From: Strigomonas culicis
Lineage: Eukaryota > Euglenozoa > Kinetoplastea > Trypanosomatida > Trypanosomatidae
NCBI GenBank assembly: GCA_000482145.1
Contig: AUXH01000092.1
Span: 1 to 42,729, forward strand
Reading direction: 5' to 3'
DNA: 42,729 nucleotides
A program made the position numbers and the translations under genes. Of the stretch, positions 17,618 through 41,330 are shown in pieces. Under the pieces are notes generated by a model, which was not told where the DNA came from, did not search any database, and saw nothing but the letters and a program-made list of their open reading frames with translations. Positions within the stretch are counted from its first letter, which is position 1. Each line of letters starts with the position of its first letter.

Positions 17618-19298
17618 ATGGACATTGAAGCAGAGCTCGCGCTCGTGCAGGCGCAGCTGGACAGCGACGACGCCCTTCGGCAGCAGATGCAACAGCAGAA
17701 CCCCTTTTTGCAGCACCAGCCGCAGCAGCAGCAGCAGCAGCAGAACCTGTCTGGTGGCATGCCCACTACTGCGTTTCTGGGCAACGCCGCCAGTGGCAGC
17801 CAGATGACTGGCCAGCAGCAGCAGCAGCAGCAGCAGATGCTGCAGCGTGGGCAGCTCTCGTCCGGCGCCGCGCCGTTCCAGCCGCCGGCACCGCAGGCGC
17901 AGCCGCAGGCCCCGCCGCACGGCGGCCAGCGCGTGGACGACGCGTCGGCCGCCGCGGCCGCGGCCGCGCACCACTTCTCGAAGGATTCGGACGGCCGGTC
18001 CATCTTCATCGGCAACCTGCCCAAGGGCGGCGGCGGCGCCGCGGCGACGACACCGGAGGAGCTCGCGGCCTTCTTCCAGGACTGCGGGGAGGTGCTCAAC
18101 TGCACTGTATTGAAGGACCGCGCGACCGGCGAGCTCAAGGGCACCGCGTACATCGAGTTTGCCAAGTACGCCTCGATGGGCTATGCCATCGACTCAAAGA
18201 ACAACGCCAACTTTAAAGGTAATAACATAATTGTAAGTTGAACACTTTCCGTGTGAGTATTCTTTCTTTTTTTTTCCTCCCCCCCCTCCCCCTCCCTTCC
18301 CCCCCCCTTCCTCTCCTCCCTCTGTGTGTGCTCTGTTGCCTGTAGCGATGGTAGGGGGCCTTGCTTTCTACCATTGCGCCGGTAGGGCTCCTGTTGTTGG
18401 ATGATTCATATGGGCAAAAAAAAAAAAGCAACAATAAATAACACAAAAAAAAAATACTCCAAACAAAAAAAAATACTCCAAACAAAAAAAAATACCGCAC
18501 AAAAAAAAAAGGCAAGAAAGTGCCCTCGTGTGCCGCAAGCGACCGTTCATACCTATCAGTCTCACTGAAGCCAAAAAAAAAAAAGATGAATATTGAAGAA
18601 GAACCAAAAAAAAAAAAACCGAAGAAGATACACAGACATATGATGACTCACATAAAGGAAAGCTCCGCCAGCATGCGCAGCGAAGGCTCACAGCAGCGGA
18701 TGCAGCGTTGACAAGCCAAAGGCCCATTTTTAGACAGAACATGTAAGGGACAAGGTAGTTCTCATAAGCACAGGAATAAGAGTGTTGATACTCTACGCCC
18801 GATGTCTTCTCTCTCTTCTCTCTTTTACTCCTCTTTCGGATTTCCTTTTCTTTTTAGTTTTACTCGACTTTTTTTTTTGCCATATGCGTTAATACAACGG
18901 GAAACAGTTTAGCTACAGTTTTCTCTCACGTATAACGCGAAAGAGAAGCTGCAGCAAACCGTTCACAGAGGGAGAGAGATACCTTTTTTTTTCCAACTCA
19001 TACATCTCTCTCCCTCACAACCCAAAATAATCTTCTCTCCCCTCTCTCTCTCTCTCTTTCTCTCCTCCTGTCTGTAAAGGTCACCAAAAAACGTTCCAAC
19101 GCGAAACCAGCACGGGGCCGTGGGCGGGGTGCCGGCCGCGGAGCCGGCGCAGACCCCTACCAGGCCTTCGCGGCCATCATGGGGATGATGGCCGGTGGCG
19201 GGGGCTACCGTGGCGGTCGCGGCCGCGGCCGCGGCGGTCGCGGCGCTGGCGGTGGCTCCGTGCTGGGGAGTGGAGCTGGTGGCTACACGCCGTTCTAG
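17618..19298 (+). CDS. PABPN1-like RRM protein, coding sequence split by an apparent cis-intron (join 17618-18232, 19080-19298)
   Basis: Exon 1 encodes 205 residues. An acidic start is followed by Gln tracts (CAG repeats near 17722 and 17813) and a Pro/Ala region, then most of an RRM from about residue 128 with RNP2 IFIGNL and RNP1 KGTAYIEF. The frame then runs into a stop within a few codons (VS, TGA at 18239), before the last RRM strand is complete. Exon 2, 847 nt later, resumes in phase 0 with VTKKRSNAKPARGRGRG. This completes the strand as in nuclear poly(A)-binding protein PABPN1 (family pattern I-K-V-x-P-K-R-T-N) and adds the arginine/glycine-rich tail typical of that family. The joined protein is 277 aa. 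PABPN1 binds nuclear poly(A) and stimulates tail extension. If the join is wrong, exon 1 would be a truncated RRM and exon 2 an orphan GAR peptide. Confidence 0.82.
18345..18377 (+). other. Predicted hairpin inside the intron
   Basis: Positions 18345-18354 and 18368-18377 are complementary over ten pairs (one G-U), enclosing a 13-nt loop rich in G and T. It lies about 110 nt after the 5' splice site, directly after a polypyrimidine/C-rich run. Confidence 0.5.
18445..18500. repeat. A-rich short tandem repeat in the intron
   Basis: A unit of about 18-19 nt, an A-run followed by TACTCCAAAC, is repeated twice, with a third degenerate copy (TACCGCAC). It lies within the candidate intron and may simply reflect replication slippage. 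Confidence 0.75.
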
Positions 19299-19691: not shown

Positions 19692-20018
19692 ATGTACACC
19701 ACTGCCGACAACAACACCACCATCACTGCCAAGGTGAACGCGCAGCTGCGCATCATGCTGGAGGGCAACCCGAGTACCGGCTACAGCTGGCAGCGCGACA
19801 AATTCGTCGGCAAGGACACGCAGAGCGACGCCACCTTCACCGTCACAAGCACCTACGCGCAGAGCACGAAAGGACTGATCGGTGCGCCCGGTGAGTACAC
19901 GTTCCAGGTCGTGCCACTCAAAGCGGGCACGCACACCCTCACCCTCGTCTACGCGCGGTCCTTTGAGGGTGTCAAGAGCAGTGATGAGAAGTTCGTGCTG
20001 CACATCACCGCCGAGTGA
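19692..20018 (+). CDS. ICP: Chagasin-family inhibitor of cysteine peptidases
   Basis: The 108-residue protein carries the three conserved loops of the I42 (chagasin/ICP) family: NPSTGYSW at 26-33, GAPGEYTF at 64-71 and YARSFEG at 87-93. In the family these loops form a wedge that enters the active site of papain-type (clan CA, family C1) peptidases, where the NP-TG loop contacts the catalytic centre. The length matches chagasin (about 110 aa). There is no signal peptide, as in trypanosomatid ICPs. Trypanosomatids use it to restrain their own cysteine peptidases and in some species host or other target peptidases. The start at 19692 was chosen over an upstream TTG in the same frame because coding bias begins here. 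Confidence 0.95.
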   Translation: MYTTADNNTTITAKVNAQLRIMLEGNPSTGYSWQRDKFVGKDTQSDATFTVTSTYAQSTKGLIGAPGEYTFQVVPLKAGTHTLTLVYARSFEGVKSSDEKFVLHITAE

Positions 20019-33074: not shown

Positions 33075-34256
33075 ATGCCGCCTCCGACGGCGAGCAGCGG
33101 CGCGAAGGCGGCCGACGCCCTCAAGCGCCACTGCCACCACATGATCAACACGCTCGGCCCGGCCGCGCCGCCGGAGGCCTTTCTGTTCCGCGCGAACGCC
33201 TACTACGCGCTGGGCCGGCCGTACCTCGCCCTCGCGGACTACAACACCGCGGCGCTCGTGCTGCACCTCTCCGGCAGCCACCAGGTGCGCTGCCACCGCG
33301 CGATCGAGCGGTTCCCCGCGCGGCAGGTCGCCACGTACCCCGGCACGGACTCCCACCTGCACATCTTCGTGCGGCCGCGCCTCGGGCCCGCCGTCGCGCT
33401 CGTGGCGGCGGTGGACGCGGCGTGCGGCCGCGGCCTCGTCGCCGAGGCGGACCTGCCCGCCGGCGCGACCGTGCTGCGGCAGGACGTGCCGTGGCTGCAG
33501 TACGCGACGCTGGACGAGAGCTGCGCCTGCTGCGGCGCCGCGCTGCCGGAGCGCGCCTTCGCGTGCGTCAACCCGGAGTGCCACGAGGAGTACTGCAGCC
33601 GCGACTGCCGCACGGCGGCCATGGCGCTGTACCACGCGGCCGTGTGCACGAACAGCGCCTTCCAGGGCATCGAGCTCGACCTGTACACGCAGATGCGCAC
33701 GGCGGCGCACGAGGGCGCCGCGCGGGCGCAGCGCCGGCTCGCGCAGGAGCTGCTCATGGTGCGGCTCATGGCCGTCGCGGTGCAGGCGCAGGTCGTGCCC
33801 TCCGCCATGCCGCAGCTCCGCTTCCTCAGCGGCCGCATCGCCTACGCGCCGGCCGAGCTGAGCGGCGCGACGCTGCACCTCTACGAGCGCCTCGCGCAGG
33901 CGCTGCGGGTGCACACGATGGTGTCCTACGAGGAGATGCTCGGCATCCTTGCGCGGGTGCGCACGAACGCCACCTTCACCGACGAGACCATCGCGCTGCG
34001 GCTGTCGCGCACGATGGTGAACCACAGCTGCGCGCCGAACGCGGCCGAGGACGCCGCGAGCGGCGAGCTGCGCACGACGCGGCCGGTGAAGGCGGGGGAG
34101 CAGCTGACGGTGGACTACTTCCCGGCGGTGGAGAGCGGCCTCCCCGCGGCGGAGCGGGCGCGCGTGCTGGACCGGGAGTACGACTTCCACTGCCACTGTG
34201 CGCAGTGCCACGCCGCGCCGGCGGCCGCAGCGGCGTGTGGGGCGAAGACGGAATAG
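33075..34256 (+). CDS. SMYD-like SET/MYND protein methyltransferase
   Basis: The 393-residue protein begins with a TPR-like pair (FLFRANAYYALGRPYLALAD). It then has a split SET domain enclosing a MYND-type zinc cluster (CACCGAAL, CVNPECHEEYC, SRDC, ending in a distant H-AVC), as in SMYD enzymes. The SET core motifs are NHSCAPN from Asn316 and TVDYFP with Tyr348, the S-adenosylmethionine/catalytic Tyr positions. A post-SET cluster FHCHCAQC closes the domain. SMYD enzymes methylate lysines on histones or cytosolic proteins. The TPR at the N-terminus instead of the C-terminus differs from animal SMYD1-3. The target is unknown. The start is the ATG at 33075, where GC3 bias begins. Confidence 0.88.
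   Translation: MPPPTASSGAKAADALKRHCHHMINTLGPAAPPEAFLFRANAYYALGRPYLALADYNTAALVLHLSGSHQVRCHRAIERFPARQVATYPGTDSHLHIFVRPRLGPAVALVAAVDAACGRGLVAEADLPAGATVLRQDVPWLQYATLDESCACCGAALPERAFACVNPECHEEYCSRDCRTAAMALYHAAVCTNSAFQGIELDLYTQMRTAAHEGAARAQRRLAQELLMVRLMAVAVQAQVVPSAMPQLRFLSGRIAYAPAELSGATLHLYERLAQALRVHTMVSYEEMLGILARVRTNATFTDETIALRLSRTMVNHSCAPNAAEDAASGELRTTRPVKAGEQLTVDYFPAVESGLPAAERARVLDREYDFHCHCAQCHAAPAAAAACGAKTE

Positions 34257-41273: not shown

Positions 41274-41330
<57 letters not shown>
41274..41330. repeat. (CT)n microsatellite
   Basis: About 24 CT units followed by one ATCT interruption and more CT. It is long enough to act as a polypyrimidine tract for trans-splicing of the following zinc-finger gene, though it lies some 230 nt upstream of the ATG. 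Confidence 0.9.

Follow-up and report, generated by a model that had tools for sequence, protein, structure and literature searches.

A 42,729-nt contig of Strigomonas culicis, analysed here over its whole length and called the window (contig C92 of a 17.7-Mb assembly in 670 contigs), carries an RRM gene whose reading frame ends abruptly and appears to resume 847 nt downstream. The question raised by this locus is whether the gap is a cis-spliced intron, the space between two genes, or a fault of the assembly. Our analysis makes it very likely that the gene is an RBP20 orthologue with a conserved spliceosomal GT-AG intron, and that 18232 is joined to 19080.

Organization of the interrupted gene

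Exon 1 (17618-18232, plus strand) is a frame of 205 codons open from its ATG, which encodes a Q-rich N-terminus followed by the RRM. According to the initial annotation, this exon stopped before the last RRM strand. The stop at a GTAAGT, at 18232, was confirmed, but it lies inside the end of that strand: Pfam RRM_1 matched residues 129-204 (E 2e-15), and exon 1 alone covered the profile to position 69 of 70. Thus, the contribution of exon 2 is mainly a basic RGG tail and, as the RRM is nearly whole without it, domain integrity alone does not require splicing. Exon 2 (19080-19298, plus strand) has 72 codons and a stop, and encodes the end of RRM strand 4 and the RGG-rich tail. Joined, the two exons give 277 aa, whereas the unspliced frame adds only V-S to exon 1 before a stop at 18241, giving 207 aa.

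The predicted phase 0 intron (18233-19079, plus strand; 847 nt, GTAAGT...AAAG) contains stops in all three frames, and its description as non-coding sequence with a pyrimidine tract and an AAAG end was accurate. Its 5′ splice site, GTAAGT (18233-18238, plus strand), shares the core GTAAG with the donors that we assigned to PAP1 and DBP2B in this genome. A 39-nt polypyrimidine tract (19031-19069, plus strand) precedes the 3′ splice site AG (19078-19079, plus strand), which is possibly a spliced-leader acceptor too. Thus, the GT donor, AG acceptor and polypyrimidine tract of spliceosomal GT-AG introns were all present. The acceptor is the first AG since 18977-18978, and 99 nt upstream of it (18979-19077) are free of AG; this stretch alone is weak evidence, because AG-to-AG distances of 100 or more occurred 32 times among the 2192 AGs of the same strand. 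GC content fell from 66% in exon 1 to 43% in the intron, and exon 2 reached 74%. An alternative donor within exon 1, GTAATA, was not preferred, as the residues beyond it are kept in relatives.

Exon 2 and the reading frame in relatives

The tail encoded by exon 2 was searched for with a profile HMM built from seven C-terminal tails of other species, the window's own tail being excluded; one of the seven, P0038, had originally been found with an alignment that contained the window's tail. A single frame matched, starting at profile position 1 and at base 19080 (E 1.8e-13), and the runner-up among 979 stop-to-stop frames of at least 20 aa had an E value of 0.1. In addition, a six-frame scan of the window gave 19080 as the only site of the motif [VI][ST]KKR. 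The earlier proposal that exon 2 resumes in phase 0 with the expected residues was therefore borne out. Searches with six single proteins (tblastn) did not reach significance on exon 2, which we attribute to the RGG-rich nature of the tail. P0005 picked up from its residue 279 exactly at 19080 with 50% identity (E 1.9), P0038 matched from 19077 (E 0.03), P0004 gave exon 2 fragments only (E 0.43), and P0006, P0032 and P0034 gave no exon 2 match; except for P0038, these E values were within the range of chance matches elsewhere.

Comparison with orthologues, which the initial annotation had proposed, was carried out at the protein level with residues 122-245 of the spliced protein as query; the best 8000 candidates were scored and 37 matches were listed. 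By reading, 35 of the 37 belong to the RBP20 family, with aligned-part identities of 69-79% in 26 and 53-68% in nine; the other two, P0036 and P0037, are other RRM proteins. The frame broke at the junction residue in 28 of the 37 listed relatives (27 by script and P0029 by eye), in which the RRM runs to the Val of strand 4 and is followed by Cys and unrelated residues or a stop. One further relative, P0001, terminates at this Val. Six (P0004, P0005, P0006 and P0032-P0034) read straight through the junction, with [ST]KKRS next. The breaking group spans Leishmania, Porcisia, Novymonas, Leptomonas, Trypanosoma and Bodo. The protein-level comparison places the predicted intron at the same codon across relatives, and the annotations in the breaking group most likely stop at an unrecognised intron. 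RBP20 orthologues of many Leishmania and Trypanosoma species would therefore stand in databases in a truncated form that lacks the RGG tail.

These data also bear on the idea of an insertion or misassembly in an otherwise continuous gene, or of a pseudogene. Fragmentation of the assembly into 670 contigs leaves some room for such an error; however, the same break in 28 of 37 listed relatives from many genomes, the canonical splice sites, and the coding composition kept in both exons reduce its probability to almost nothing.

Two separate trans-spliced genes could also account for the arrangement, exon 1 encoding an RRM protein complete at 207 aa, and exon 2 standing as a small gene of its own or as a non-coding RNA. 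The nearly complete RRM_1 match in exon 1 and the database entries for Leishmania and Trypanosoma orthologues, which stand without exon 2, agree with this possibility, as do two facts about exon 2 in T. brucei, its former annotation as a lncRNA and the spliced-leader reads found there (PMC12592628). However, the first ATG in the frame of exon 2 does not come before exon-2 residue 34, beyond the KKRS motif, six of the 37 listed relatives have continuous proteins, and junction reads are reported for T. brucei in the same source, so that two genes are very improbable here.

Among the continuous proteins, P0006 is a Bodo-like RBP20 from a 13,688-base contig, and its continuity on a contig of this size suggests that one Bodo-like lineage has lost the intron. 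P0004 and P0005, with source contigs of less than 2 kb, may be transcripts rather than genomic sequences. Two further pieces of exon 2 came from the tail search. One of them, P0039, belongs to a JGI relative in which exon 1 was predicted as a protein of its own (P0026), on a contig with the same listed length, 11872.

The 28 breaking relatives have V-C across the donor, which implies a GTNTGY donor (e.g., GTATGT) in contrast to GTAAGT here; the fourth donor base has apparently changed in the S. culicis lineage.

Gene identity and published RBP20 introns

We take the window gene to be the orthologue of T. brucei RBP20, which is Tb927.8.6440 (PMC12592628). Immediately downstream in the window is a gene for a chagasin-family cysteine peptidase inhibitor, ICP (19692-20018, plus strand; Pfam PF09394, E 5.7e-21). 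The T. brucei ICP is given as Tb927.8.6450 (PMC2680270), and we infer adjacency of RBP20 and ICP in that species from the gene numbers. Synteny was also assessed with the SET gene of the window (at 33075), whose identity is 50% with Phytomonas EM1 and at most 56% with other relatives, apart from P0040, which is identical over 76%. Eleven named species were present in both protein lists; contigs carrying RBP20 and the relative of SET were listed at identical size in five (L. pyrrhocoris, L. enriettii, Porcisia, L. martiniquensis and L. utingensis) and at different sizes in five, and none was listed for the remaining one.

The Leishmania orthologue of the window gene is LPMP_241760, on chromosome 24 by its locus tag. 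The initial annotation also mentioned that introns in RNA-binding protein genes may have been predicted in Leishmania. Such a prediction exists, and the gene meant was probably LmjF32.0850 (PMC3990616). We rejected it as the same gene, since it lies by its name on chromosome 32, whereas the RBP20 orthologue lies on chromosome 24.

The RBP20 intron is already known, having been reported in 2024-2025 as belonging to a third kinetoplastid intron gene. PMC12592628 lists three cis-spliced transcripts in T. brucei, PAP1, DBP2B and RBP20, and credits the RBP20 intron to Kostygov et al. 2024 (BMC Biol 22:281); the count of three is repeated in PMC12621601. A T. brucei transcriptome study of 2010 did not extend the number of introns beyond two (PMC2936537), and a count of two is still given in a 2025 paper (PMC11888146); we consider both overridden by PMC12592628. 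Introns are very rare in trypanosomatid genes, and it had initially been stated that poly(A) polymerase and a DEAD/H-box helicase were the established intron genes; both could be assigned in S. culicis (see below), but RBP20 has to be added as the published third. Both classical introns are reported to be absent from Phytomonas EM1 and HART1 (PMC3916237). According to PMC12592628, kinetoplastids have retained their cis-splicing machinery for about three introns, each lying in a gene for a nuclear protein that acts in RNA processing.

The gene is orthologous to that of T. brucei and other Kinetoplastea, and it shares with them the ICP neighbour and the protein-level intron position. According to PMC12592628, the T. 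brucei junction is supported by split reads and RT-PCR, and spliced-leader reads are present at exon 2, where spliced-leader addition competes with cis-splicing; all three signals shift upon depletion of DRBD3. A cis-intron in a PABPN1-like RRM gene, as first suggested for the S. culicis locus, is the best reading. Spliced-leader reads at exon 2 and junction reads had been set against each other as the way to decide the case; this opposition is too sharp, because T. brucei has both.

Our preferred explanation is that a U1-containing cis-spliceosome would join 18232 to 19080, yielding a protein of 277 aa with the RGG tail after the RRM. Trans-splicing of the spliced leader to the acceptor at 19079 is probable as well and would give an RNA of exon 2 only, and intron retention would give the 207-aa protein without the tail. 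Dependence on the PTB-like protein DRBD3 would be expected by analogy with T. brucei. A variant of this explanation is that the intron is real, yet mostly retained as a switch, the tail-less protein being a regular product. PAP1 cis-splicing looked inefficient in L. donovani (PMC6467909) and unspliced RBP20 RNA is present in T. brucei (PMC12592628), both of which are compatible with frequent retention. On the other hand, PMC12592628 reports split reads from control cells of T. brucei and a drop of tagged RBP20 upon DRBD3 depletion, and the residues past the donor differ between species, which argues against a conserved tail-less end. We regard predominant retention as unlikely, and regular joining of the two exons remains the preferred reading.

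Relation to PABPN1

The best structure matches of the RRM in the spliced protein were PABPN1 (PDB 2jwn and 3ucg), with 45 bits to 2jwn, and the similarity to PABPN1/PABP2 extends across the exon junction. The sequence comparisons give fair support to the label PABPN1-like RRM. However, RBP20 is not the best PABPN1 match of the genome. Another RRM gene (C18:5672-6250, minus strand), a single open frame with an RGG tail and 67% identity to a Novymonas protein, scored 72.5 bits to 2jwn. Since this gene is closer to PABPN1, the link of RBP20 to poly(A) appears weak, and the suggestion that cis-splicing occurs in two or more poly(A)-related genes was not upheld.

PAP1 and DBP2B introns in the same genome

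Candidates for both classical intron genes were identified. A poly(A) polymerase-like gene, which we take to be PAP1 (locus L003 on contig C48, minus strand), is interrupted at ...GSDIDL by a 201-nt phase-2 intron (GTAAGG...CAAG); the other match of the poly(A) polymerase family in the genome is one open frame. A DEAD-box gene on contig C205, taken to be DBP2B, has a 1319-nt intron (L042 2486-3804, GTAAGT...ACAG) that splits motif VI as HRIG|RTGR; it was the only frame ending within motif VI among the frames listed for 30 of 37 DEAD matches. Both are GT-AG introns, as in RBP20, and all three donors have GTAAG. The introns differ in other respects: that of PAP1 lies in phase 2 of another gene and, like RBP20, has a C-rich pyrimidine tract, whereas that of DBP2B lacks a long tract near the donor. 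Both are longer in L. donovani, at 841 nt for PAP1 and 4470 bp for DBP2B (PMC6467909).

Since the introns of PAP1 and DBP2B, each with a GTAAG donor, appear to be conserved, cis-splicing should be active in S. culicis, which would be a further lineage with seemingly all three introns intact; this agrees with the idea of a regulatory reason for their retention. An Rfam search of the genome did not find U1 snRNA, and the same search of 14 control genomes likewise gave nothing; two motif searches for U1 gave three matches, none U1-like, versus two in reversed controls. Two pattern searches of the whole assembly for the conserved 
end of a spliced-leader exon (T and A variants) were negative, so that the spliced-leader array may be missing or diverged.

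Pyrimidine tract downstream of the donor

The RBP20 intron contains a second pyrimidine tract close to its donor. It is C-rich, comprises 64 uninterrupted nt from intron position 28 (18260-18323, plus strand) and is the longest of the window; PAP1 has a comparable tract of 58 nt from position 18. Only three tracts of at least 45 nt were present in 189,899 bases searched on both strands (three duplicate loci dropped, some remaining loci overlapping), namely those of RBP20 and PAP1 and a TC repeat at 41274. The RBP20 and PAP1 tracts were equalled in none of 1048 overlapping intergenic windows, taken with our own list of 22 genes. For DBP2B, the longest run was 18 with one purine, a length also reached in 301 of these 1048. 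CCTCCC followed by 29 pyrimidines, a pattern picked after the tracts had been seen and in a search that possibly skipped simple repeats, gave 22 genome-wide matches, distributed over 17 places that include the RBP20 and PAP1 introns, versus 12 in the reversed control.

Read-through peptides of relatives suggest that pyrimidine richness after the RBP20 donor also occurs in Leishmania relatives and Bodo. In 20 relatives with readable tails, mostly close kin, the residues F, S, P and L, which have pyrimidine-rich codons, accounted for 53% of the segment next to the donor; their share was 27% in the later part of 17 tails and 38% in 364 control frames, with P0028 (25%) and P0035 (5%) showing the opposite trend.

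DRBD3 is described in PMC9639853 as the trypanosome PTB homologue, which pulls down U1-70K and U1C and has the motif UUCCCCUCU. Exact copies of this motif were absent from the RBP20, PAP1 and DBP2B introns. With one mismatch, six copies were found in the 2367 nt of the three introns versus 24 in low-GC sequence from elsewhere (88,800 nt), a count of six being reached by 2 of 300 shuffles. However, four of the six were in DBP2B and none was within the donor-proximal tracts, so that the motif lends no support to the tract as a DRBD3 site. PTB-like proteins are encoded on contigs C75 and C255, both below the family cut-off, and one of 14 control genomes also matched.

A role of the tract is conceivable. 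It might define the intron: PTB-like DRBD3 would bind the C-rich tract after the donor in RBP20 and PAP1, hold U1 snRNP at the donor and silence trans-splicing, and cis use would then be limited to a few donors, although GT occurs by chance at thousands of sites. This proposal is tentative and we regard it as doubtful. Literature searches, with the full text of Kostygov et al. 2024 outside their scope, found no paper on such a tract, and its occurrence in the RBP20 and PAP1 introns, DBP2B excepted, is possibly new. If it holds up, the tract would offer a handle on telling cis donors from spliced-leader acceptors.

Elsewhere in the window, a 49-nt TC dinucleotide repeat (41274-41322, plus strand) is the one further pyrimidine tract to reach 45 nt.
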